IMG/VR virus record: IMGVR_UViG_3300045996_001123
Location: 1-30,840 of that record
From: a virus
Reading direction: 5' to 3' (one strand)
DNA: 30,840 nucleotides
In this document: piece after piece, positions 4,854 through 30,734 of the stretch
Position numbering within the stretch: position 1 is the stretch's first letter
Layout: every line of letters starts with the position of its first letter
The notes under the pieces: generated by a model
What the model was told of the DNA's origin: nothing
The model's input: only the letters and a program-made list of their open reading frames with translations
Database searches by the model: none
Translations under genes and position numbers: made by a program

Positions 4854-6252
4854 ATTGACCATTTTCGGTGTCCTGCGCAACGCAGGCCGCCGTAAGGCAC
4901 TGCAGCCAGTCAATAACTGGAGGCGAGGCTGGCGTGTCATCAGCGAGCCCCTCACGGGAGCGTGGCAGAGAAACGAATCCGAGAGCATCGGGAATTTGAC
5001 GTGTTACCCGACGCTCTATGCTTGCCTGTCGTCGATCGCGCAGGACATTGCGAAACTCCCTTTCGTACTCGTAGAAAAAACCGATGACGGGATCTTCAAG
5101 GAGATCAAGGAGTCCCCATATCTGACCGTATTGCGTGAGCCGAACGGATATCAGAATCCGCAGCAGTTTCGAGAATCGTGGGTGCTTTCCCTTTTGACCG
5201 ATGGCAATACGTACATCCTAAAAGGGCGCGATGCGCGAGGAGTCGTGAATCGACTCTATGTGCTCGACCCCTGTCGCGTAACTCCGATGGTGTCAGAGAC
5301 TGGCTCTGTCTTCTATCAGATCCACTATCTTAGTGCTCAGAACCTATTGCCGGTGTCTTACCCGGCTGAACAGTTGATCATTCCTGCTCGGGAGATGATC
5401 CATGCGCGTATCAATTGCTTGCATCACCCTCTGATCGGGATTCCTCCGCTGTGCGCGGCTGAATTAGCCGCCGGTAAGAATCTGAAGATCCTTCGTAGCA
5501 GTTCGCTCTTTTTCCAGAATAGTGCTCAGCCTGGCGGATTACTCACTGCGCCTGCCGGCATGAACGAGACCGATGCAGCGGCCGTGAAAACCTACTGGGA
5601 CACCGAGTATGCCGGCGACAACGCGGGGAAGATTGCTGTGATCGGTGCGGACATGAAGTTCACATCCTTCGCCATGAAAGGTGCTGACGCTCAGGTCATT
5701 GAGCACCTGAAATACAGTGATGAGCAGATCTGCCAGCCGTTCCGTATCAAACCCTACAAGATCGGTATCGGAAATCCCCCTTCCGGGTGGAAGTCCGATG
5801 ACGTCAATGTGGAATATCACGGGGACGCGCTGAGCCCGATTATCGAATCCATGGAAGATTTGCTGGCAGATGGTCTTGGCGTCCGTCCCTATCAAATCTG
5901 GCTGGATGACGAGACGTTGTGGCGTATGGATGCAGGAAAGCTGGCGGACGTCGAGACGAAGCTCGTCAGCGGCATGATTAAGACGCCTGACGAGTCAAGG
6001 CGGAAGATGAATCTTCCAAAGACTGGCGGTGGCGACACCTTGTGGGGCCAACATCAGGACTATCCGCTTGGGATGCTGCGTGACCGTAATGACCTGAACT
6101 CTGTCGTTAATCCAGCGCCTGAGACCGATGACTCATCCACCGATGAAGAGCTGGAGGCGGCTAACGAAGAAGTTAGGCGGCTTACTGCTGAGATATGGCA
6201 GCGCAAGGCGCTAGAGGCGACTCGAGAGGCGACCAAATGCTTGACCCCGTAG
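4846..6252 (+). CDS. Portal protein, HK97 family
   Basis: A 468-residue protein forming the dodecameric ring at the capsid vertex through which DNA enters and leaves. Diagnostic stretches are the N-terminal SIGNLTCYPTLYACLSSIAQDIAKLPF, the middle LLTDGNTYILKGRDARG (non-ring DNA-packaging region), and later SSLFFQNSAQPGG, then the NVEYHGDALSPIIESMEDLLADGL region. The C-terminal end is Glu-rich and helical. The gene overlaps the small membrane protein upstream and the collagen-like gene downstream, implying translational coupling. It follows the capsid gene, the reverse of HK97 order. Confidence 0.93.
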   Translation: MAELTIFGVLRNAGRRKALQPVNNWRRGWRVISEPLTGAWQRNESESIGNLTCYPTLYACLSSIAQDIAKLPFVLVEKTDDGIFKEIKESPYLTVLREPNGYQNPQQFRESWVLSLLTDGNTYILKGRDARGVVNRLYVLDPCRVTPMVSETGSVFYQIHYLSAQNLLPVSYPAEQLIIPAREMIHARINCLHHPLIGIPPLCAAELAAGKNLKILRSSSLFFQNSAQPGGLLTAPAGMNETDAAAVKTYWDTEYAGDNAGKIAVIGADMKFTSFAMKGADAQVIEHLKYSDEQICQPFRIKPYKIGIGNPPSGWKSDDVNVEYHGDALSPIIESMEDLLADGLGVRPYQIWLDDETLWRMDAGKLADVETKLVSGMIKTPDESRRKMNLPKTGGGDTLWGQHQDYPLGMLRDRNDLNSVVNPAPETDDSSTDEELEAANEEVRRLTAEIWQRKALEATREATKCLTP

Positions 6253-7133
6253 AGTTCGGTAAGGCGATGGCTGCGATCGTCATCGACGCGACCATGCCTT
6301 TACTGAAGCGAATAGAGCAACTCGAAAGCTGTCATCCCATCAAAGGCGACAAGGGTGATCGTGGAGAGCGCGGTGCGGATGCACCCGAGGTAACGGACGA
6401 GAAGATCTATGCACAGGTTGCTAGATATCTGTCCGAGCATACTCCTGCTGCTGGAGAGAAAGGTGAGCGCGGCGAGAAAGGCGAGAAAGGCGAGAAAGGT
6501 GATGAGGGGAACCACGGAAGGGATGCAGATCCAATGGACGTGCGCGAGGTTATTCGCGGAATGATCGAGTCTGACGATCTATTGTCACTGGTCGAACTGC
6601 GCGTTAAGGAAGAGGTGACTCGCATCCCTGCACCGAAGGGCGGAGAGAAAGGCGACCGCGGTGAGAGGGGCGAAAAGGGCGCTGAAGGTACCGGTGTTGC
6701 GGACCTTCTGATCGATCGGGACGGAAATCTCGTTGCGACGATGACAGACGGACGAATGAAGTCGCTCGGCGTCGTATGCGGAAAGGACGGAAAACCTGGC
6801 CGTGACGGGAAGGATGGCACTGACTTCTCTGGCTTCGATGTGGACTACGACGGCGAGCGCACGCTGACGATTCGAGGCAACGGCGGTGATCTTGTGAAGC
6901 GTCTTCCGATCCCCATGGACCGCGGGTACTGGCGCGAAGGCCGCTATGAAAAAGCCGATATCGTTACTGAAGGCGGAATTGCTTACATCGCGCAGAAGGA
7001 TACAAAGGAAAAGCCTTCGCTGTCGTCCGCCGATTGGCGAATCTTCGCACGCAAAGGACGCGACGGAAAGGACGGCCGCAATGGCATCGACAAGACCCAG
7101 CCGACGAAGCTAAAGGACTGCGTCGATGCTTGA
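6237..7133 (+). CDS. Collagen-like repeat protein of the head region
   Basis: A 298-residue protein. Residues 1-30 form a helical start, then blocks of Gly-X-Y triplets alternate with non-collagen spacers. Examples are GDKGDRGERG, GEKGERGEKGEKGEKGDEG, GEKGDRGERGEKGAEG, GRDGKDG and a final GRDGKDGRNG. Near the C-terminus, GYWREGRYEKADIVTEGGIA followed by YIAQKDT resembles small carbohydrate-binding or chitin-binding-like beta modules. ATG 6237 is preferred to 6195 because GAGAGG lies about 7-12 bases upstream. It overlaps the portal end by 16 bases and the connector gene by 8. Collagen-like phage proteins usually form trimeric fibres. Here the position points to a head- or neck-associated fibre, by inference. 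Confidence 0.8.
   Translation: MLDPVEFGKAMAAIVIDATMPLLKRIEQLESCHPIKGDKGDRGERGADAPEVTDEKIYAQVARYLSEHTPAAGEKGERGEKGEKGEKGDEGNHGRDADPMDVREVIRGMIESDDLLSLVELRVKEEVTRIPAPKGGEKGDRGERGEKGAEGTGVADLLIDRDGNLVATMTDGRMKSLGVVCGKDGKPGRDGKDGTDFSGFDVDYDGERTLTIRGNGGDLVKRLPIPMDRGYWREGRYEKADIVTEGGIAYIAQKDTKEKPSLSSADWRIFARKGRDGKDGRNGIDKTQPTKLKDCVDA
6471..6497 (+). repeat. Three tandem 9-bp copies within the collagen-like gene
   Basis: GGCGAGAAA occurs three times back to back (6471-6479, 6480-6488, 6489-6497), encoding repeated Gly-Glu-Lys. Exact 9-bp repeats can slip without breaking the frame, so triplet number may vary between isolates. Confidence 0.85.
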
Positions 7134-7518
7134 GCTTGTAACCGTTGAGGAAGCGGTGATCCAGTGTCGTGGGGATGAGGAAATCGATGAGCCATGGTTG
7201 TCGGTTTTCATTCCTGCGGTATCTGAGGCCGTGCGGACTTGGCTCAAAGATGATTGGCGCATCTACTTGCCTGCGAGAGATTCTTTCGGAGACATCATCG
7301 TTGACAGTGATGGCGTACCCATTCCGGAGGAGGAAGCCGGTGTGCCAGTAGTGCATCCGACCGTGCGGGTTGCCGTTCTTCTGGAGATCGCGAGCCAGTA
7401 CAGGTTTCGCGAAGGAGAAGGCGATAACCGCGTCGAAAGCCATCATGGTCATGGGTATGTGCTGTCACGCGCGGCTACCTCGCTGCTGAATGGGCTGCGA
7501 AAGTCTACGGTGGTCTAG
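7126..7518 (+). CDS. Head-tail connector protein (gp6-like)
   Basis: A 130-residue protein of the gp6-like connector family, which forms the ring below the portal. The pattern fits: an N-terminal helix (VTVEEAVIQCRGDEEIDEPWLSVFIPAVSEAVRTWL), a variable loop, then VVHPTVRVAVLLEIASQYRFREG and a C-terminal helix ending GYVLSRAATSLLNGLRK. The spacing of these helices and the position between portal and head-closure genes are diagnostic. The ATG at 7126 overlaps the collagen-like gene's end. Confidence 0.85.
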   Translation: MLELVTVEEAVIQCRGDEEIDEPWLSVFIPAVSEAVRTWLKDDWRIYLPARDSFGDIIVDSDGVPIPEEEAGVPVVHPTVRVAVLLEIASQYRFREGEGDNRVESHHGHGYVLSRAATSLLNGLRKSTVV

Positions 7519-7878
7519 ATGGCGCTCGCGGCTGGACGGCTTAGGCACCGAATCACAATCCAAGAGCAGCGGCAGCAGCAGGATCCAACAACCGGAACGA
7601 CCCGCACCGTGTGGCTTAACTTTGCCACTGATGTCCCTGCTGAGATCGTACTTCCCAGTGTACGAGAGAGGCTCGCTGCGAAGCAGATGCAGAGTGAAGC
7701 ATCAGGAAGAATCACGATCAGATACCGCCCAGGTATGTCTGCAACGATGAGATTGATAGGGCTATCTGGTCCGTACAAGGGAATGATCTTTAACCCTGAA
7801 GGATGGTCGCCTGATCAAGAAAGCGGGCTCGAATTCTTGACCGCCCCCTGTAGTCAGGGCGTCAACGACGGTGATTAA
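7519..7878 (+). CDS. Head closure / head-tail joining protein
   Basis: A 119-residue protein of the head-tail joining family (HK97 gp7 / SPP1 gp16 type). The start AAGRLRHRITIQEQ and middle GTTRTVWLNFATDVPAEIVLPSVRE are the classic signature, followed by RITIRYRPGMSATMRLI and the C-terminal beta region. It closes the connector channel and receives the tail. The ATG follows the previous stop directly (TAG then ATG). The end overlaps the first accessory gene by one base (TAATG). Confidence 0.88.
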   Translation: MALAAGRLRHRITIQEQRQQQDPTTGTTRTVWLNFATDVPAEIVLPSVRERLAAKQMQSEASGRITIRYRPGMSATMRLIGLSGPYKGMIFNPEGWSPDQESGLEFLTAPCSQGVNDGD

Positions 7879-8408
7879 TGTCGCTCGTCGTTGTGATTGC
7901 GACTGGTCAGTCACTGACTCTCCAGCAGGTCGATCGCGTCTATGAGTTTCACGCGGCTGGCAAGTGCAAGGTGATCGCGGTGTCGAACGCATACCAGCTT
8001 GCGCCGTGGGCGGATGCGCTGGTGAGTAACGACAGGGCTTGGTGGAATAATCACCCTGATGCGATGAAGTTCTCAGGTCGTCGGTTTTGTGGAACCCAGC
8101 AGACTGGGATGGAACTGATCCCATCGAACGGGAGGTTCCGATCGGGTTCGAATAGCGGCCTGCAAGCAATGCGGGTAGCCAAAGAGACTTTCGGCGCAAC
8201 GCATATCGTATTACTTGGCGTAGACATGCACGGGACGCACTACTTCGGTCCGCATCCCGAGCCGTTGAGAAACACCACGGAGAAGCGGTTCCAGGCGCAT
8301 ATCGCACAGTTCAGGAACTGGCGCGGATGCGAGGTCACCAATTGCTCGCCGTGCAGCGCGCTCAAGCAGTTTCCGATGAAGGAGTTGGATGAAGTTCTTT
8401 GTCCTTGA
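7878..8408 (+). CDS. DUF115/MAF-like putative glycan-transfer protein, copy 1
   Basis: A 176-residue protein resembling the nucleotide-sugar-binding core of DUF115 / motility accessory factor and GT42-type proteins. ATGQSL (residues 8-13) matches the G-x-G-P-S-L loop. WADALVSND (44-52) matches the 'pDy...D' motif. GSNSGLQAMRVA (90-101) and GATHIVLLGVDMHG (106-119) match the LG..I.L.G.D motif. It is shorter than cellular members, so it may be only a catalytic core. A paralogue lies at 11312-11836, with about half the residues identical by eye. It shares one base with the head-closure gene upstream and 20 bases with the ATP-grasp gene downstream. Related phage proteins are sometimes labelled 'morphogenetic'. 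Substrate and acceptor are unknown. Confidence 0.6.
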   Translation: MSLVVVIATGQSLTLQQVDRVYEFHAAGKCKVIAVSNAYQLAPWADALVSNDRAWWNNHPDAMKFSGRRFCGTQQTGMELIPSNGRFRSGSNSGLQAMRVAKETFGATHIVLLGVDMHGTHYFGPHPEPLRNTTEKRFQAHIAQFRNWRGCEVTNCSPCSALKQFPMKELDEVLCP

Positions 8409-9282
8409 CGAACGCCACGTTTGGTTCGGGTCGATCATCAAGGCAGCAAAAGCCCGCGGCTACTCGGCAAAGCGAATCTTCCGTGGCGATGAAGTCGATG
8501 CAGAGGGTGCTGGCTTCATCCGGCCCCATGCCGATCCCGTCGAGCTGAAGAAAAACCAGCGCGACTACGACTTGATGGCTGCTCGCCTGACCCTGATTCA
8601 GGACGAGACGCAGGTCAGGCTGTACGAGAACAAGAGCGCGCAGTTCGAGCGGTGGTCCGAATGGATGCCGCCGACTTGGCGATTCGCGGATCGCGACGCG
8701 GCGCTCGCGTTCTGCGAGTCGTCGGCTCCATATCCGCTGGTGTCCAAGGCGGATGTCGGAGCGAGCTCGGTGAATGTCCGCATCCTTCGGGACCGATACC
8801 AAGCGATTGCTCACGTGGCATCACTATTTGGCGCTGGTGTTGAGGTCAATCACTGCTCTGGCAAAGCGCGATCGATGCAGAAAGGGTACGCACTGCTGCA
8901 AAAGTTCATTCCCCACACGGTGACGTGGCGCGTGAACGCTGTTGGAACGAAGCGAGCGGCCTTCCGACGGTATTGCTACCCGGACCGCTCCGTCGCCCAG
9001 ACCGGCAATGTCGAGCCGGTGACGATTTTGACGCCGCAGGTCGAGTCGCTACTGGACTTTTCCAACAAGTTTCTTGAGATCGCCGACACGAAATGGTGTG
9101 CGATCGATGTTCTGCAGGACGGTGATTCGTGGCGTTTGCTTGAAACATCGCTCGCGTGGCCCTGGCCGTCTCCCGGAAAATGTAACGAAGCACCGTTCTT
9201 CGGCACAAGCCGGCGCTGGATTGAGATGTTTGATCTGATGATGGACGAATTAGAGGCTGGAACGTGGCAGAAGAAGCACTAG
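8389..9282 (+). CDS. ATP-grasp-like ligase
   Basis: A 297-residue protein with the layout of an ATP-grasp enzyme (carboxylate-amine/thiol ligases). The N-terminal pre-ATP-grasp region starts KFFVLDERHVWFGSIIKAAKARG. The ATP-binding Lys lies in YPLVSKADVGASS (K120, with a flexible glycine/serine loop). There is a hinge strand, YALLQKFIPH. The metal-binding end is WCAIDVLQDGDSWRLLETS, with D240 and E252 as candidate ligands. It overlaps both neighbours, so it is coupled to the accessory block. Substrate is not predictable: amino-acid or peptide ligation to a sugar, lipid or protein are all possible. Family call moderate to good, specific function unknown. Confidence 0.7.
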   Translation: MKFFVLDERHVWFGSIIKAAKARGYSAKRIFRGDEVDAEGAGFIRPHADPVELKKNQRDYDLMAARLTLIQDETQVRLYENKSAQFERWSEWMPPTWRFADRDAALAFCESSAPYPLVSKADVGASSVNVRILRDRYQAIAHVASLFGAGVEVNHCSGKARSMQKGYALLQKFIPHTVTWRVNAVGTKRAAFRRYCYPDRSVAQTGNVEPVTILTPQVESLLDFSNKFLEIADTKWCAIDVLQDGDSWRLLETSLAWPWPSPGKCNEAPFFGTSRRWIEMFDLMMDELEAGTWQKKH

Positions 9283-9584
9283 CAGTCGCGAATCAAATTG
9301 CATCACGTCGCCCGCTGTGGAGTCGGTTCCTCGCGCGCGTGTTTGTTTTGTACATCGTGATCAACATGGGGCTCTGTGCCGTTGTGTTTCTTCCGTGGGC
9401 ACTGCCTCGCGAAACGATTTCAGGGCTGCTGGGCCGCTGGATTTCGACGGAGCGTGGATGGAAGCGAATTGCCGGCCTCCTGATGGGCGCGCTGGCAGAC
9501 CGGATTTACTTCTGGGAGCCGAATCACTGCGTCGAAGTCTATCGATGCGAGCACCGTGCGCGCGAAGTTCTCTATCCGTGCTGA
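9264..9584 (+). CDS. Small membrane protein of the accessory block
   Basis: A 106-residue protein starting with GTG at 9264, within the end of the ATP-grasp gene (19-base overlap). One strong hydrophobic segment spans about residues 25-47 (FLARVFVLYIVINMGLCAVVFLPWAL). A second, weaker one is at about 66-80. Cys residues near the C-terminus (EVYRCEHRAREVLYPC) form no known motif. I do not recognise the family. Its position between a ligase and a phosphodiesterase suggests a membrane anchor or partner for them (inference). Confidence 0.6.
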   Translation: MAEEALAVANQIASRRPLWSRFLARVFVLYIVINMGLCAVVFLPWALPRETISGLLGRWISTERGWKRIAGLLMGALADRIYFWEPNHCVEVYRCEHRAREVLYPC

Positions 9585-10225
9585 GAGATCGGATCGTCGC
9601 TCACCGCGGCAATGCCATGGAGCATCGAGAGAACTCAGTCGCCGCCATCCGCTCAGCTGTTGATCTCGGCGCTCGGTTCGTCGAATTCGACGTGCAGATG
9701 TCGAGCGATATGGTTCCGGTGCTGATGCACGACGCTTGTTTGCTGCGGATGTACGGCAAGGACCGTGATTCGTTCGATACAAGCGCACAAGGACTGAAGG
9801 CGCTGGGTGTCGAGACCTTGTCGGAAGTCATTCCGGCCTTGGGTGAGGCGACGGCGTTCGTCGAGATCAAGCGGGACGGCGTGGCCAAGTTCGGCGCGCG
9901 CACCGTCGTGGACCGGATTTGCGAAATCTGTCCGCCTGATCAGTGCGTGATTATCTCATTCGATCAGGACGCGGCGTTGCTTGCTCGAGCGAAAGGCTTC
10001 CGGATCGGCTTCGTCCTGCCGGATCTCGGCCCAGCGAGCCGAGCGCACTGTGATGTGCACAAACCTGAGTACGTGTTCATAGACCAGAGGCACGTCACGG
10101 GCCCCGTGTGGCCCGGATTCCTCTGGGTCTCATACGAAGTCGCCGACAAGGCCATGGCGGCTCGCCTGATGGGTTACGGAGTGCATCTGCTGGAAACGAT
10201 GCGCGTCCGGCAGTTGATGCAATGA
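9578..10225 (+). CDS. Glycerophosphodiester phosphodiesterase-like protein
   Basis: A 215-residue GDPD-family TIM barrel, which hydrolyses glycerophosphodiesters to glycerol-3-phosphate and an alcohol. The catalytic HRGN is at residues 9-12, followed by EHRENS. The metal ligands E37 and D39 sit in RFVEFDVQMS, the second histidine in VLMHDA (H51), and the EIK motif in AFVEIKRDG (about 96-98). Downstream barrel strands are present (CVIISFDQDAALLARAKG, RIGFVLPDL). GTG 9578 is chosen because it overlaps the previous stop and places HRGN close to the start as in relatives. The frame stays open back to 9317 but that extension is a shadow. No signal peptide is seen, so it would act in the cytoplasm. 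Confidence 0.85.
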   Translation: MLRDRIVAHRGNAMEHRENSVAAIRSAVDLGARFVEFDVQMSSDMVPVLMHDACLLRMYGKDRDSFDTSAQGLKALGVETLSEVIPALGEATAFVEIKRDGVAKFGARTVVDRICEICPPDQCVIISFDQDAALLARAKGFRIGFVLPDLGPASRAHCDVHKPEYVFIDQRHVTGPVWPGFLWVSYEVADKAMAARLMGYGVHLLETMRVRQLMQ

Positions 10226-10941
10226 TCGCAATTATTTGCTTCAAGTGGTCGAAGCCGGGCTACCGCAGCACATTCTTACCGGTCCATGCCAACACATTGC
10301 GGCGCATGGTGGCTCGCCACTATCCGCATCCGTTCCGCTTCATCTGCGTAACGGACGATGCGACCGGGCTGGATCCCGAGGTAGAGCACATTCCGCTGTG
10401 GGACGACTATGCAGCGATCCCGAATCCTTCGTGGCCGACCGGTCCGAGCTGTTACCGGCGGTTGAAGGTGCATTCGGACTGGTTCGCGCAGTTGATCGGG
10501 CTCGGCACACGAATGGTGTTGATCGACCTTGACGTTGTGATTACCGATGATCTGACGCCGATCTTCCATCGCGAAGAACCATTTTTGATGTGGGAGACCG
10601 GAAATCCAATGATCACGCACTGTGCATCAATGGTGATGGCGACTGCGGGCGCGCATCCCGAGATTTGGGACACCTTCGATCCGGTGAAGTCGCCGCGGCT
10701 CGCGACCCAAGACGGCCGCATGAAGGGCAGCGATCAATCGTGGCTGTACTACGTGATGCGTAAGAAGCTCGCCGGTTGGGGCCCGAAACATGGTGTCTAT
10801 TCGTATCGCGATCACTGCGTCAAGCAGTACCAGAGCAAGCTGCCAAAAGGCGCACGCATCGTGATGTTTCACGGCAAGCCTGATCCTTGGTGTTATTCGG
10901 CGCTCCAGGCGTCTCCCTGGATTCACGATCACTACTACTAG
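10222..10941 (+). CDS. GT-A type glycosyltransferase
   Basis: A 239-residue glycosyltransferase of the GT-A fold, GT8-like. The N-terminus (MIAIICFKWSKPGYRSTFL) and FICVTDD form the nucleotide-sugar binding strands. MVLIDLDVVITDDL holds the DxD metal/nucleotide motif (D102, D104). Later, MKGSDQSWLYY is the usual acceptor-side 'DQ' motif, and IVMFHGKPDPW the C-terminal His-containing motif of this group. The ATG overlaps the GDPD stop (ATGA). Donor sugar and acceptor are unknown. Being in the late operon, it most likely acts late in infection, on virion proteins, on phage DNA or on host surface glycans (inference). Confidence 0.82.
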   Translation: MIAIICFKWSKPGYRSTFLPVHANTLRRMVARHYPHPFRFICVTDDATGLDPEVEHIPLWDDYAAIPNPSWPTGPSCYRRLKVHSDWFAQLIGLGTRMVLIDLDVVITDDLTPIFHREEPFLMWETGNPMITHCASMVMATAGAHPEIWDTFDPVKSPRLATQDGRMKGSDQSWLYYVMRKKLAGWGPKHGVYSYRDHCVKQYQSKLPKGARIVMFHGKPDPWCYSALQASPWIHDHYY

Positions 10942-10943
10942 CA

Positions 10944-11312
10944 ATGACGCCAACAGTGTTCGCCTATGTCTCTGCATCTGCTCTGTGCAGGGCGCAGCTG
11001 GGCACTCCACCGAACATGCGTTTCTATGCGTTCGGCGAGTCGCCACAGGGCGTGGCTTTGCCGTATGCAGTTTGGCAAATGATCACGGGCACGCCCGCCA
11101 ACTACCTCGGGCAGTTGCCTGATATGGACGGGTCGAGAGTCCAGATTGATGTCTATGCAGCGACGCAGGCGGTGGCGACCGCTGCAGCTGTTGCAATTCG
11201 GAACGCCATCGAACCTTCTGCGCATCTCGTGAACTTTGCCGATCGCGGTCGAGATGCGACGACCCGAAACTACGGGTACATGTTGGACTTCGACTTCTTC
11301 ACGTCTCGTTAA
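10944..11312 (+). CDS. Tail completion protein (DUF3168-like)
   Basis: A 122-residue protein of the DUF3168 / gp17-like tail-completion family, which caps the head-proximal end of the tail tube. The telltale pattern is an N-terminal helix (TPTVFAYVSASALCRAQLG), RFYAFGESPQGVALPYAVWQMI, then SRVQIDVYAATQAVATAAAVAIRNAIE, a beta hairpin and the ending MLDFDFFTS. ATG 10944 lies 2 bases after the glycosyltransferase stop. It is separated from the head-closure gene by five accessory genes, which is unusual. Confidence 0.85.
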   Translation: MTPTVFAYVSASALCRAQLGTPPNMRFYAFGESPQGVALPYAVWQMITGTPANYLGQLPDMDGSRVQIDVYAATQAVATAAAVAIRNAIEPSAHLVNFADRGRDATTRNYGYMLDFDFFTSR

Positions 11313-11836
11313 TGACAACTTGGGTCGTCCTTGCTACGGGCCAGAGCTTATCGCCTGAGCAGATCGATCGCGTAAGGCAGGCGCACGAGCAGCAGCGTTG
11401 CAAGGCGGTCGCGGTATCGAACGCCTACCAGCTCACACCTTGGGCCGACGTGATGGTGAGCAACGACATCAAGTGGTGGAGACAACATCCGCAAGCTTTG
11501 CAGTTTGCAGGGCGCAAGTTCTGCGGCGGCGAGCACAAGGGGACGGAGAGGCTCAAACCGGAGTCGATGTTCCCGGCCGGATCAAATAGCGGCCTGCAGG
11601 GAATGCGCGTTGCACTGATGCTCGGTGCTACAAAAATCGTCCTGCTGGGTATGGACATGCACGGCACTCATTACTTCGGGAAGCATCCATCGGCACTGAA
11701 GAACTCAACGCCCGCCGACTTCCATCGGATGCTGCGGCAGTTTCAGCGTTGGAAGTCGGATGTGGAAGTCATCAATTGTTCGCCCGGGAGCGCACTCACT
11801 TGTTTCAAGACGGCAAGCCTCGCGGACGTGCTGTGA
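11312..11836 (+). CDS. DUF115/MAF-like putative glycan-transfer protein, copy 2
   Basis: A 174-residue paralogue of the 7878-8408 product. It keeps ATGQSL (8-13), VSNAYQLTPWAD with VSND (about 35-52), the GSNSGLQGMRVA motif (90-101) and GATKIVLLGMDMHGTHYFG (105-123). The most divergent stretches are residues 20-32, 70-88 and the C-terminus, so this is an old duplication, not a recent one. Like copy 1, it follows a structural gene with a TAATG one-base overlap. Two retained copies imply separate roles or acceptors. Function is inferred from family resemblance only. Confidence 0.6.
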   Translation: MTTWVVLATGQSLSPEQIDRVRQAHEQQRCKAVAVSNAYQLTPWADVMVSNDIKWWRQHPQALQFAGRKFCGGEHKGTERLKPESMFPAGSNSGLQGMRVALMLGATKIVLLGMDMHGTHYFGKHPSALKNSTPADFHRMLRQFQRWKSDVEVINCSPGSALTCFKTASLADVL

Positions 11837-11937
11837 CGGCGTGCAAGCCATGCGCGGCCGCGCGCAGGATCCTGCCACGAAAACTGCGTGAGCGTTTGGA
11901 ACAGGTAGAAAAGCGATGGCGGAAGTCGAAGGCTTAG
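11833..11937 (+). CDS. 34-residue CxxC micro-protein
   Basis: A tiny frame starting GTG 11833 on the previous stop (GTGA) and ending inside the start of the gp10-like gene. The product begins MTACKPCAAARRILPRKL, with one CxxC pair, then a charged helix (RERLEQVEKRWRKSKA). The double overlap and phage-like composition favour a real gene, but its size leaves doubt. Half a zinc ribbon (dimerising) or a disulfide pair are both possible. Confidence 0.45.
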   Translation: MTACKPCAAARRILPRKLRERLEQVEKRWRKSKA

Positions 11938-12392
11938 GCGAGCTCCTGAAGACGCTTCAGGCGCTTCCAAAGGAGATCGTAAGCGTCAAGGGTGGGCCAG
12001 TCCGCGTCGGGCTTCGAAAGGCTGGGCAAGTGTTCCAGCGTGCCGCGCAAGCGAACATTGATCGCATAGTCGCGGAACCTAACAAGGACGCTAGGCCAAG
12101 CGTCTCTACCGGCACACTCAGGAAAGCCGTGATCGTCAGCCGCGACCCGAACCCACAGAGATCAGGTGCAAACGAGCGCGTGCTGGTCCGGCTTCGGCGG
12201 AAGGATCGTGCGCCGAATGGCGCCTCCGTGCATGCCTACGGAGGCATGCTTGAGTTCGGCAATGAGCAAGTGCGAGCGAAGCCCTGGCTTCGTCCGGTGG
12301 TGCCCGAGAGGTCATCCGAGGCACTGAGTGTGTTTATCACCGAATCGAGAAAGGCGATCGACCGCGCTGTGAAGAAGGCGCGTCGCCGGTAA
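11916..12392 (+). CDS. HK97 gp10-like head-tail / tail component
   Basis: A 158-residue protein of the HK97 gp10 family (tail terminator or neck-associated). Signature features are the N-terminal EGLGELLKTLQALPKEIV, then LRKAGQVFQRAAQANIDRIV, a central STGTLRKAVIVSR, the HAYGGMLEFGNEQVRAKPWLRPVV block (the family's most conserved segment) and the basic C-terminus KAIDRAVKKARRR. It overlaps the CxxC micro-ORF. The two terminators just downstream close this part of the operon. Confidence 0.88.
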   Translation: MAEVEGLGELLKTLQALPKEIVSVKGGPVRVGLRKAGQVFQRAAQANIDRIVAEPNKDARPSVSTGTLRKAVIVSRDPNPQRSGANERVLVRLRRKDRAPNGASVHAYGGMLEFGNEQVRAKPWLRPVVPERSSEALSVFITESRKAIDRAVKKARRR

Positions 12393-12414
12393 ATGTTTTG
12401 TAAGTAGCGTCGAG

Positions 12415-12463
12415 AAGCCCGCTTCGTGCGGGCTTTTTTGTGCCCGCCACGTGCGGGTTTTTT
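12415..12463 (+). terminator. Tandem intrinsic terminators before the tail tube gene
   Basis: First hairpin: AAGCCCGC (12415-12422) with GCGGGCTT (12428-12435), a 5-base loop and a six-T run from 12434. Second: CCCGC (12443-12447) with GCGGG (12453-12457), followed by six Ts at 12458-12463. Both read well on the + strand. They probably tune readthrough into the tail genes, or processing may leave the tail-tube mRNA protected. Confidence 0.85.
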
Positions 12464-12482
12464 CATTTTGGGAGACTGAAAC

Positions 12483-12965
12483 GTGGCGAAGAAAACACAG
12501 GGCACGATGCTGTACGTCATCGTGCCTGCCGATGAGTCCAACGTCGCACAGTTGCTGCGAGTGGGTTGCGTTACGAATCTCACGGGAGTGAGCGCGACGC
12601 GCGATCAGATCGAAACGACGTGCTTGGAATCCCTCGCGCGTACTTACGAGGCCGGCATGCCGACGCCTGGTACCGCGACATTCACGGTGAACTTCGATCC
12701 GGAGGATACGACGCATCTGGCGGTGCATGCCTTGTTCCGCTCCGGCGACAAGGTGGATTGGGCGATTGGCTGGTCCGATGGCACGACTGCTCCGACCCTC
12801 GCGTCCGAAGACGAGTTCGACCTGCCCGACACGCGCACGTGGATCCTCTTCAACGGATTCGTCAACGACGTTCCATTCGACTTCGCGCTCAACACGGTCG
12901 TGACGTCGAACATCGGCATTCAGCTGTCGGACTTCCCTGAAATCTTCCCGCGGACGGCGAGCTGA
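12483..12965 (+). CDS. Major tail (tube) protein
   Basis: A 160-residue tail tube protein of the lambda gpV-like type. The start AKKTQGTMLYVIVPADES, then CVTNLTGVSATRDQIETTCLES, is characteristic: the 'TRDQIETTCL' motif recurs in siphovirus tail tube proteins. A beta-rich remainder includes TATFTVNFDPEDTTH and WILFNGFVNDVPFDFALNTVV. Start GTG 12483 has GGAGA about 8 bases upstream. It directly follows the tandem terminators and precedes the chaperone genes, the standard order. Confidence 0.9.
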   Translation: MAKKTQGTMLYVIVPADESNVAQLLRVGCVTNLTGVSATRDQIETTCLESLARTYEAGMPTPGTATFTVNFDPEDTTHLAVHALFRSGDKVDWAIGWSDGTTAPTLASEDEFDLPDTRTWILFNGFVNDVPFDFALNTVVTSNIGIQLSDFPEIFPRTAS

Positions 12966-12967
12966 TT

Positions 12968-13342
12968 ATGGATTTCGACACTGAACGTCATGCCGTCACG
13001 GTTTCGCACAACGGCAAGGAAGTCACGTACTACGTCCGGGAGCTTGGCTACTACGAGTTCCAGGAACTCAACCAGGACGCGGCGAGAGTATATCCGGAAA
13101 AGTCAGATACCAATCGTCGCGGCCTGAAGGTAATGCACGAAACTGCCGTTGCTTCCATCGAAGACAAGGACGGAAATCCTGCGTTCACGCTTTCGACTTG
13201 GAAAAGGCTGCCCAAAGAGCCAGCAAAGATTCTGACAAACGCTGCAATGAAGGCACAGGGCATCGACCTTCAGAAGGCTGCGGAAGAGGCAGAGGACGAG
13301 CCAGCTGAAAACTCGCAGGGAGACAGCGCGGGAAACGCGTAA
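12968..13342 (+). CDS. Tail assembly chaperone, short form (gpG-like)
   Basis: A 124-residue tail-assembly chaperone made by normal termination. It is beta-rich at the start (HAVTVSHNGKEVTYYVREL) and helical and acidic at the end (LQKAAEEAEDEPAENS). Chaperones of this type bind the tape measure protein during tail assembly and are absent from the virion. The ratio of this form to the frameshifted form (see 12968-13650) is what the slippery site controls. The TAA stop lies two codons after the slippery heptamer. Confidence 0.85.
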   Translation: MDFDTERHAVTVSHNGKEVTYYVRELGYYEFQELNQDAARVYPEKSDTNRRGLKVMHETAVASIEDKDGNPAFTLSTWKRLPKEPAKILTNAAMKAQGIDLQKAAEEAEDEPAENSQGDSAGNA

Positions 13343-17381: not shown

Positions 17382-17809
17382 TCACTGCTGATCAACTGAT
17401 TACCGCTGCGCGTTCCCTGAAGGGAGTGCCTTGGCATCATCAAGGCCGGACCAAGAATGGCGTTGACTGCGCTGGATTCGTCGATCTGGCGACAAAGACT
17501 GCCGGTCACGATATGGAGGAGTATCTGGGCCAGCGTGCACCGAAAAACTACTCGCGCAGCGCCAGCCCGGTGTTGCTTGAACTTACTGCGAAGTATGGCG
17601 AGCGAATCTCTAAGCCCTGTCCGGGTTGCCTAGTCTTGTTCAAGTTTGACGGTGAGATCCACCCACGGCATTACGGCATCGTGACCTATGACGGTTACGT
17701 CATACACGCGAACTCCATGCATGGTGGTGTCATGGAGCATGGATTGAGGGCGCAGTGGGCCCGATGGGTACATTCATACTGGAAAATTCCTGGAGTGCTT
17801 TACCCATGA
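17378..17809 (+). CDS. NlpC/P60 tail peptidase
   Basis: A 143-residue cysteine peptidase that probably cuts host peptidoglycan stem peptides during DNA entry. The catalytic Cys is C31 in GVDCAGFV, and the catalytic His is H98 in RHYGIVTYDG. IHANSMHGGVMEH (from about residue 109) supplies the remaining active-site strand. It corresponds to GTA gp14 or the C-terminal domain of lambda K. The overlap with the upstream hub gene and downstream cupin gene indicates co-translation. Confidence 0.9.
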   Translation: MITADQLITAARSLKGVPWHHQGRTKNGVDCAGFVDLATKTAGHDMEEYLGQRAPKNYSRSASPVLLELTAKYGERISKPCPGCLVLFKFDGEIHPRHYGIVTYDGYVIHANSMHGGVMEHGLRAQWARWVHSYWKIPGVLYP

Positions 17810-18258
17810 AGGGACTGGTTGAGTTCGCAAGAAGCGTTCTCACAATGTCGTTCGCCGACTTTCGGCCGCCACCAGATGCGCTGCGGGCCTATCGCATAGG
17901 GACGGCGGAGTTCCACACCCTTATTCTCTTTCGACAGGGGCAGTATCAGGTGGAGTACATCACGTGCTCGCCATCTCCTGGAAATGTCTCGGTTGTGCCT
18001 GAGCACAGCCATCCAAATGTGAATTCCATCGACATGTTTGTGCACGGCCAAGTCGGCCCACTCAGTGGAGTGGTTCACTGTCCGTACGGCAGTAAAAGGC
18101 GTATCCCGCACGGTGTTTTACACGGCGCTACAGTGGGCGAGGCGGGTAGCGCAATCTTGTGCTTCCAGCAGTGGATCAACGGCATTGAACCGACAAGCAT
18201 TGCGCTCGACTGGCGCGGACCTGATCACCATGAGGTCCGCGCCGTGCGGCTAGGCTGA
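17806..18258 (+). CDS. Cupin-like protein, copy 1
   Basis: A 150-residue protein with cupin-like features. QGQYQVEYITC is followed by VVPEHSHPNVNSIDMFVHGQVG (H67, H69, D76 as candidate metal ligands), then RRIPHGVLHGATVGEAG (H102, H106). The C-terminal CFQQWINGIEPTSIALDWRG matches its neighbour closely. Cupins can bind metals or sugars, isomerise sugars or serve as structural beta barrels. ATG 17806 (ATGA with the peptidase stop) is chosen over the upstream in-frame ATG. It sits inside the conserved hub-peptidase-tip gene run, where this gene is not normally found. Confidence 0.6.
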   Translation: MKGLVEFARSVLTMSFADFRPPPDALRAYRIGTAEFHTLILFRQGQYQVEYITCSPSPGNVSVVPEHSHPNVNSIDMFVHGQVGPLSGVVHCPYGSKRRIPHGVLHGATVGEAGSAILCFQQWINGIEPTSIALDWRGPDHHEVRAVRLG

Positions 18259-18746
18259 TGGAGTTCGATAGCCTTCCAAGTTTCGCGCGATGGTTTCTGT
18301 CGCAGCCATTCAGGGCACTTCGTCCACCGCGTTCACTCGTGTACTTCTACCAAACAGAAGGTGGCGTCGTCATAAGCACTGTGCTTTGCAGGCATGGGCA
18401 ATACCAAGTCGAGTTATTCGCTGGTCCTGGTCCTGGGTTCTTTCCTCCTCATCGTCACCCGAATGTGGATAGCATCGAAGTAATGTTGGGTGGGGATGTC
18501 GGGTTCAGAGTTGGCGAGCGCACCGTGTTCAGCGAGGCGCAGCTCGCATCGACCGCGTCGGATGGGGCAAGCCTCGTGACAGGTCAGCGTATACGCGTGC
18601 GTCCTACAGACCAACATGGCGCAAGCGTCGGCGAGGCCGGCGGTGCGTTCCTGTCAATTCAGCGCTGGCTCAATGATGTTGAGCCGACGTCAGTTGGCTT
18701 GGACTGGGATGGCCCTGCGCATCTCGCTATCCGTGGCGTTGCATGA
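18258..18746 (+). CDS. Cupin-like protein, copy 2
   Basis: A 162-residue paralogue of the previous gene. RHGQYQVELFAGPG, PPHRHPNVDSIEVMLGGDVGF (H65, H67, E74) and VRPTDQHGASVGEAGGA (H120) follow the two cupin motifs better than copy 1 does. The end WLNDVEPTSVGLDWDGPAHLAIRG is shared with copy 1. It overlaps the upstream gene by one base and the tip gene by four. Tandem duplication with divergence at the metal-site region suggests specialisation. Function is unknown. A role at the tail tip or in host-surface binding is inferred from position. Confidence 0.62.
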   Translation: MEFDSLPSFARWFLSQPFRALRPPRSLVYFYQTEGGVVISTVLCRHGQYQVELFAGPGPGFFPPHRHPNVDSIEVMLGGDVGFRVGERTVFSEAQLASTASDGASLVTGQRIRVRPTDQHGASVGEAGGAFLSIQRWLNDVEPTSVGLDWDGPAHLAIRGVA

Positions 18747-29753: not shown

Positions 29754-30734
29754 TTAGACGCCGCTCTTCAGCTTCGTGACGAGCGCTTTCGCACGCTTCG
29801 GTAGGCGCCTATAAACGCGCTGGGTGAGCTTCACATCGCTGTGACCCAACCGGTCGGCCGCGGACTGATCGTCGTCAGAATCGCTTGCTGATTTGGCTCG
29901 CAGGTCGTGGAAGTGAAAGTGCTCGGTGAAGCCGTCTTTCTTGCACTTCCTCATCAGCCGCTGCCATTGGCTTTGAAATCCGTTGGCGGAGTAGGGCTTG
30001 CCCTGGCGATTACAGATCAGCACCTGCCGAACCTGGGGCGACAGGCGCAGGATGGATTTCACCACCGCACGCAGTTCGTCGTTCCACTCGATGAGTTGTA
30101 GCTTGCCCGTCTTGCCACGCTCAAACTCGATGCCGTCGTCGGTGAGGTTACGGCGCTCGAGCTTTCGGATCGTGCCTTCATCCATGCCGGCGAGCAAAGC
30201 CAGATCCATCGCGAAGCCGATCATCGGTTGAGCTCGGTCGCGAACGAACGAGAACGCGTCGTCGGTGACGTAGTGGTCTCGCGGCTTGGAGTCTGGGAAC
30301 CGCAGCTTGTAGCAGGGGTTCTCGTGCGATATGACGCCGGTCTGACGCGCATAGGTCATCAGCGCCGATAAGCATCGCACTTCCTTCTTGGCCTGTTCGA
30401 TCTCGCCGCGCTTCTTCCAGTAGTTCCACGCGTGGTGCGGCTCGATGTCCTTGGGATGCATCGCCCCGAACACCGGCTCCAGCATCGACCATTCCTGGTG
30501 ACGATTCTTCTGCGTCTTGGCTGCCTTCTTGTGCAACTCGGCCAGCTGGTACTTGGCCCAGAGCGCCGACATCGTTTCACTGGCGTCGGCTGACTCCACG
30601 ATCGCGGCCCACGTCTTCAGCCCATCCGGCAGCGGAATCCATTCCTCGGTGCCAGGCTTGACGTAGTAGAGCTTCCCGCGGCGCTGATAGACGCGCGGCG
30701 GCAGGTGGCGATTCTTTTTTCTGTTGCGCCCCAC
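29754..30734 (-). CDS. int: Tyrosine site-specific integrase
   Basis: A 326-residue tyrosine recombinase that would integrate the phage at attP/attB. The N-terminal segment HLPPRVYQRRGKLYYV is an arm-binding-like domain, then a core-binding domain (about 50-140), then the catalytic domain. Catalytic residues present: K208 or K211 (RGKTGKL), H276 and R279 (HFHDLRAKS), H298 (LGHSD) and the nucleophile Y308 (QRVYRR). The place of the first Arg, normally in G-L-R-x-x-E, reads LLAGMDEGTI, giving Asp at 185. Start is GTG 30734, one base after the upstream - strand stop, so it is co-transcribed with that gene. The 3' end faces the att core, the usual arrangement. Confidence 0.93.
   Translation of the reverse strand: MGRNRKKNRHLPPRVYQRRGKLYYVKPGTEEWIPLPDGLKTWAAIVESADASETMSALWAKYQLAELHKKAAKTQKNRHQEWSMLEPVFGAMHPKDIEPHHAWNYWKKRGEIEQAKKEVRCLSALMTYARQTGVISHENPCYKLRFPDSKPRDHYVTDDAFSFVRDRAQPMIGFAMDLALLAGMDEGTIRKLERRNLTDDGIEFERGKTGKLQLIEWNDELRAVVKSILRLSPQVRQVLICNRQGKPYSANGFQSQWQRLMRKCKKDGFTEHFHFHDLRAKSASDSDDDQSAADRLGHSDVKLTQRVYRRLPKRAKALVTKLKSGV

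Follow-up and report, generated by a model that had tools for sequence, protein, structure and literature searches.

A DUF115-anchored gene slot in the late operon of HK97-like siphophages, possibly devoted to glycan assembly on the virion

The window analysed here is the IMG/VR virus record IMGVR_UViG_3300045996_001123 from position 1 to 30,840 (30,840 bp); records of this database are possibly fragments. Between the genes of head closure protein Hc1 and of the tail terminator, it carries a cassette of five genes (7878-10941) encoding a DUF115-type protein (copy a), an ATP-grasp protein, a small single-pass transmembrane protein (TM), a glycerophosphodiester phosphodiesterase (GDPD) and a glycosyltransferase (GT). 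We propose, with a probability of about 0.52, that this cassette occupies an exchangeable glycan-assembly slot in the late operon of HK97-like siphophages, the product of which most likely decorates virion proteins. The slot is anchored by the DUF115-type protein, of modelled Maf/CstII fold, which in the window is joined to a conserved unit of ATP-grasp, TM and GT genes, with GDPD as an optional member.

The neck slot and its contents

DUF115 searches yielded 79 viral loci and 4 genome loci. In all 47 runs of DUF115-type genes for which both borders were recognised (47/47), the flanking genes were head, neck or tail-terminator genes: protease, capsid, portal, collagen-like, Ad1, Hc1 or tail terminator upstream, and Ad1, Hc1, gp10 or tail terminator downstream. 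As a control set not picked by DUF115, 80 loci were collected by portal similarity, 50 of which had Hc1 and gp10 in order. Hc1 abuts gp10 in 18 of these 50 contigs (gap of -8 to +20 bp), 30 of the junctions hold an insertion of 1.7-5.9 kb and the other two only about 0.2 kb; a DUF115 gene was present in every large insertion (30/30). The two sets of loci share some contigs and some control loci are near-identical (for example, those with 1,708 bp cassettes), so that the slot counts are not independent events. With 18 junctions empty and 30 filled, all with DUF115, the slot is therefore accessory, often filled, and has DUF115 as its constant member.

The other genes found in the slot encode glycosyltransferases (Glycos_transf_2 or GT2, GT-D, GT29 and GT9-like), FkbM and other methyltransferases, a Polysacc_synt_2 dehydratase (3.4e-88) and a 2-oxoglutarate (2OG) oxygenase; for many cassettes, clustering served to assign the contents, and a sample was scanned with Pfam. 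These carbohydrate-themed contents were counted for the glycan-assembly reading. In one relative (L043), a DUF115-type domain is fused to an apparent methyltransferase domain (1791-2897), and the slot continues with a dehydratase of the PseB/CapD type (Polysacc_synt_2), a methyltransferase, a GT2, a GT-D and a further GT. In another (L056), a 2OG-Fe(II) oxygenase (11195-11779; PF13640, 4.2e-15) lies inside the neck-slot cassette, which suggests that hydroxylation precedes glycosylation in some cassette versions.

The ATP-grasp gene was found in ten contigs: the window, L003, L005, L031, L034 (with the related L013), L032, L011, L157, L048 and L033. The order ATP-grasp, TM, (GDPD), GT was kept in every contig that reaches far enough. 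A DUF115-type gene stands ahead of ATP-grasp in nine of the ten, detected by a six-frame HMM search in L157 and L048; the only DUF115-like gene of L033 is a distant MptE-type relative located after GT. GDPD is present in six contigs and absent from L157, L048 and L033, while L003 ends before that point. Small inserts separate some block genes, namely an O-methyltransferase in L034, an endonuclease-like open reading frame (ORF) in L005 and a second GT in L011. Two contigs carry the block outside the Hc1/gp10 slot, still beside virion genes: between terL and the protease and capsid genes in L048, and in the apparent head-gene region of another phage type in L033 (assigned by eye, the neighbours having no family match). 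The first-pass annotation of the window had presented the five genes as one set; they indeed do not occur independently or at random, but the conserved unit consists of DUF115, ATP-grasp, TM and GT, to which GDPD is an optional addition. The five-gene version is a rare one, and the general DUF115-anchored slot accommodates many alternatives to it.

The genes of the window run in the order terminase, protease, capsid, portal, collagen-like, Ad1, Hc1, cassette, tail terminator, a second DUF115-type gene (copy b), gp10, major tail protein (MTP) and tail genes; those without a family scan were named from their position and by eye, and those from Hc1 to gp10 are all on the + strand. The upstream slot border is Hc1 (7519-7878; Pfam Phage_HCP, 3.4e-19; PHROG_25, 5.9e-27) and the cassette is followed by the tail terminator (10944-11312, gp17-type tail completion; Pfam Tail_completion_gp17, 1.4e-12; PHROG_78, 1.4e-12), in agreement with the placement first given to it between head closure and tail completion genes. 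The downstream border in most relatives is the HK97 gp10-type neck/tail protein (11916-12392 in the window), named from the order hc1, cassette, gp10 in those relatives. All five ORFs of the cassette are present and overlap as first described, successively by 20, 19, 7 and 4 nt; Hc1 overlaps DUF115 copy a by 1 nt, and the GT stop lies 2 nt ahead of the tail terminator. No sigma-70-like promoter was found in 7000-13000 (0 versus 2.1 expected), and the sole convincing terminator, identified by eye, is at about 12,420-12,460, after gp10. The cassette genes have no room for promoters of their own, and together with the flanking virion genes they form one operon.

The ratio of non-synonymous to synonymous substitutions (dN/dS) was 0.05-0.21 for ATP-grasp, TM, GDPD, GT and DUF115 copy b compared with three relatives, some dS values being rough because of saturation. 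The values for gp10 and MTP (0.03-0.12) are near those of the cassette, in which ATP-grasp had the highest. The cassette genes are thus under purifying selection, and low dN/dS together with recurrence in other contigs indicates that the block is more than a chance assembly. Compared with L005, L031 and L034, the window is 30-61% identical in head genes and 59-63% in DUF115 copy a, then 74-96% from ATP-grasp to GT, 78-93% in DUF115 copy b, 88-96% in gp10 and 84-90% in MTP; the head genes of these three relatives are 74-98% identical among themselves. By these identities the window looks like a natural recombinant with its junction between DUF115 copy a and ATP-grasp. As the jump in identity at ATP-grasp continues into the tail genes, the part from ATP-grasp to GT follows the tail module.

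The proteins of the cassette

The anchor of the cassette, DUF115-type copy a (7878-8408), has a second Maf/CstII-like paralogue, copy b (11312-11836, 56% identity to copy a), which lies just past the tail terminator and had been missed by the first-pass annotation; copy b occupies the same position in L005, L031, L034 and L047. Both copies match PHROG_4603, annotated as alpha-2,3-sialyltransferase (1.8e-30 for copy a and 3.6e-32 for copy b). The AlphaFold2 (AF2) model of copy a, built from 17 sequences, has a pLDDT of 88, and its best structural match (VIA) is the Maf glycosyltransferase 5mu5, with a Z of 13.8 over 158 residues. CstII and CstI follow at Z of about 10.9-10.5 (CstII 1ro7, 10.9), and the same core is shared by the cell-division regulator SteA (Z 10.8) and by MptE-type HPPK (Z 10.2). 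Foldseek with the same model gave no match at E <= 0.001, and the PF01973 cut-off (34.6 bits) was not reached, copy b scoring 14.5 bits (E 0.031) and copy a giving no match. As judged from the model, the DUF115-type protein has the fold of the Maf/CstII (GT42-like) catalytic domain, which bears out the DUF115/MAF-like family originally assigned to it.

The likeness to Maf flagellin nonulosonate transferases and to CstI/CstII (GT42) extends over nearly the whole 176 aa of the DUF115-type protein, and its GxS and NSG regions align with those of CstII. Unlike Maf, which has extra N- and C-terminal domains, it consists of the catalytic core only, and its sequence match stays below the Pfam cut-off; copy a is accordingly described as a predicted minimal Maf/CstII-fold glycosyltransferase. 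By analogy with these enzymes, its donor is probably a cytidine monophosphate (CMP)-activated, nonulosonate-like sugar.

The second gene (8389-9282) is predicted to encode a RimK/Ddl-type ATP-grasp ligase. The phage protein matched no Pfam family at 0.1 or 0.05. Its structural model is of low confidence (pLDDT 55); Foldseek gave 85 matches at <=0.001 with a best E of 1.5e-5, RimK, MdnC and PsnB being among the top matches and ArgX and Ddl also among the structures found, and the top rows of the VIA comparison were mostly Ddl, RimK and biotin-carboxylase-type ATP-grasp proteins (Z up to 8.9). Bacterial relatives, 26-27% identical, match Pfam RimK at about 2e-14 to 5e-14. Residues K120, R181, D240 and E252 are unchanged as far as these RimK-family relatives, and the ATP-binding K120 and the acidic metal ligands D240 and E252 are invariant in eight sequences that include bacterial RimK-Pfam members. 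Fold and active-site residues confirm the ATP-grasp-like assignment made earlier from motifs. This ATP-grasp was found in none of 50,697 phage records, a scan of genome contigs for a bacterial home was empty, and only remote RimK relatives turned up in 399 genomes from the order to which a Rubrivivax locus belongs. In one bacterial locus (L111, 1156-3342), a RimK-type relative adjoins a gene for a sugar-transfer-associated ATP-grasp (PF14397, 7.8e-30).

TM (9264-9584), recognised by eye, adjoins ATP-grasp in every locus read far enough. It is a conserved family with the motifs PRET(I/V)SG..GR and EP.HC; it matched PHROG_3342 weakly (0.0012), and no match was found in phages. The frame of GDPD begins at about 9578 with GTG (9578-10225); a longer mechanical ORF from 9317 was rejected as the GDPD gene. 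GDPD scored 75.5 bits against a cut-off of 23.6 for PF03009 (Pfam GDPD, 9e-21) and matched PDB 3qvq (8.7e-15). Its motifs HRG, EN, ExD, HD and ExK are invariant and the catalytic residues are kept (H9, E36, D38, H51, E96 and K98), which confirms the original GDPD assignment; the protein is compact and, by eye, has no signal peptide. The last gene (10222-10941) encodes a putative GT-A-type glycosyltransferase. A glycosyltransferase PHROG (PHROG_1962, 3e-13) and the DxD motif, D102-L-D104, invariant in the alignment, argue for the assignment; the match to glycogenin (GT8) was marginal (E 0.056), so that the GT-A type proposed at first is suggested weakly.

Function of the cassette

We infer the following scheme, which covers the donor sugars, the acceptor, the order of steps, the roles of GDPD and TM and, from the operon position, late expression. 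The cassette would work late in infection. The two DUF115 enzymes and the GT-A enzyme, the latter with a nucleoside diphosphate (NDP)-sugar donor, would assemble a short glycan on virion proteins, the likeliest acceptor being a tail or neck protein such as MTP or gp10. The ATP-grasp ligase may cap or cross-link this glycan through an amide or ester, using an amino acid or similar compound; GDPD may trim a glycerophosphate-type group or supply one, and the membrane protein may act as a helper. The benefit would be a change in antigenicity, stability or adsorption, not assembly itself.

Phage virion glycosylation is documented mainly in mycobacteriophages. These phages encode glycosyltransferases, and glycans are reported on their capsid and on tail-tube C-termini (Freeman 2023, cited in PMC12619734); in the window, too, glycosyltransferase genes lie within the virion gene module, as in a virion-glycosylation cassette. 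In the literature searched, no mycobacteriophage is reported to combine a Maf-fold anchor with ATP-grasp and GDPD. Maf enzymes transfer nonulosonic acids from CMP donors onto flagellin, itself a polymeric protein of the cell surface, in O-linkage (PMC11339370). The PHROG_4603 proteins of isolated phages (P1 PmgO, P7 HdmB, D3 Orf7 and PAJU2 ORF010) belong to the same family as the DUF115-type proteins of the window, to which they are about 30% identical, and in D3 and PAJU2 the gene adjoins head-tail adaptor or head closure genes; unlike in the window, no ATP-grasp or GDPD partner was present in the regions read in D3 and P1. In P1, the homologue PmgO and its neighbour PmgQ are dispensable under CRISPR interference (CRISPRi; PMC10695390), which fits a role in decoration and not in assembly. 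By analogy, the Maf, mycobacteriophage and P1 precedents support decoration over assembly, short of proof. Ahead of Hc1, the neck cluster of Tetraselmis viridis virus S20 carries two DUF115-type genes, a methyltransferase and several GTs, one of them 47% identical to that of the window, but no ATP-grasp or GDPD was found in that stretch. A DNA-level search of isolate phages gave one short 72% match only. Among open-licence papers, none combined phage, DUF115 and glycosyltransferase or at least four of the five parts, although a prior description of the slot is possible.

Several points weigh against a glycan on virion proteins. The donor sugar and the acceptor are both inferred; the third metal ligand of ATP-grasp is S254, not Asn, and its model is the low-confidence one described above; the linkage to the tail module may be mere adjacency. 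The cassette has no recognised gene for the synthesis of nucleotide sugars and would have to draw on host pools. Finally, GDPD and the membrane protein suit envelope or lipid chemistry equally.

Because of these two proteins, the main rival is a late modification of the host envelope, in which lipopolysaccharide, capsule or phospholipid would be changed during lysis, for example to keep progeny from adsorbing again to debris or to prevent superinfection. The GT, methyltransferase and dehydratase contents of the slot are typical of surface polysaccharide loci too, and the bacterial ATP-grasp relative adjoins a PF14397 protein. However, none of the genes named in the scanned cassettes is a flippase, a polymerase or a lipid-carrier transferase, the slot is always within the virion operon, and L033, L048 and L157 lack GDPD; we consider this explanation unlikely, though the strongest of the alternatives.

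A role in morphogenesis, with the DUF115-type protein acting as a neck structural or assembly factor and not as an enzyme, would account for the constant Hc1/gp10 location and for the annotations 'putative morphogenetic' in P1 and 'structural protein' in PAJU2. It is improbable in view of the junctions that are empty in 18 of the 50 portal-selected relatives, of the dispensability of P1 pmgO and of the nearest fold, which is that of glycosyltransferases. In PAJU2, ORF010 (L191, 2971-3540, DUF115-type) and ORF015 are both annotated 'structural protein'.

Virus-encoded glycosyltransferases that hypermodify DNA are known (Pyle 2024, cited in PMC12619734), and sugars or amino acids might likewise be added to phage DNA here. 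Thymidylate-synthase family genes (PF00303) were absent from 15 related, possibly incomplete records, 12 of them >40 kb, with a working control; DNA hypermodification therefore gains no support, and with the genes located in a late virion operon it is very improbable. A search for TET/JBP (PF12851) gave no match, but its control was also silent, hence it was uninformative. The targets first suggested were virion proteins, phage DNA or the host envelope: DNA loses ground by these results, and linkage favours the tail side of the virion. Equally improbable are lysogenic-conversion genes expressed from a prophage and altering host serotype: an integrase-like ORF (29754-30734, by eye) suggests a temperate phage, but the genes overlap one another and Hc1, 7000-13000 holds no promoter-like site, and no expression of the cassette is to be expected in a lysogen.

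A more specific form of the virion-glycan reading is offered tentatively. The slot may hold a broad class of cassettes, undescribed so far, whose obligate first enzyme is a minimal Maf-type transferase and whose partners are swapped as in a serotype locus, yielding a phage-specific virion glycan; ATP-grasp would here link an amino acid or similar compound to the glycan or directly to a tail protein. We know of no ATP-grasp-type amino acid linkage in virions. A conserved exchangeable slot with a Maf-type enzyme as its obligate member, filled at 30 of 50 junctions in relatives selected independently of it, would point to virion decoration as a frequent and diversifying trait, which would matter for recognition by antibodies, for adsorption and for phage typing.

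Other genes of the window

A collagen-like protein is encoded between portal and Ad1 (6195-7133) and is present in all 48 full portal-selected regions (48/48). Among DUF115 relatives (L032, L034, L035 and L038, for instance), its uninterrupted Gly-X-Y runs comprise 2-80 triplets, and its C-terminal part resembles, by eye, a carbohydrate-binding module. By analogy with the glycosylation of collagen hydroxylysine, it was considered as the specific acceptor and rejected, because the gene is found in all 48 regions whether or not they have a cassette.

Two adjacent related proteins (17806-18258 and 18258-18746), cupin-like by eye, are encoded between an NlpC/P60-type gene and a large tail-tip gene. 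The pair had no Pfam, PHROG or NCBIfam match, and relatives of it were found in L005 and L031.

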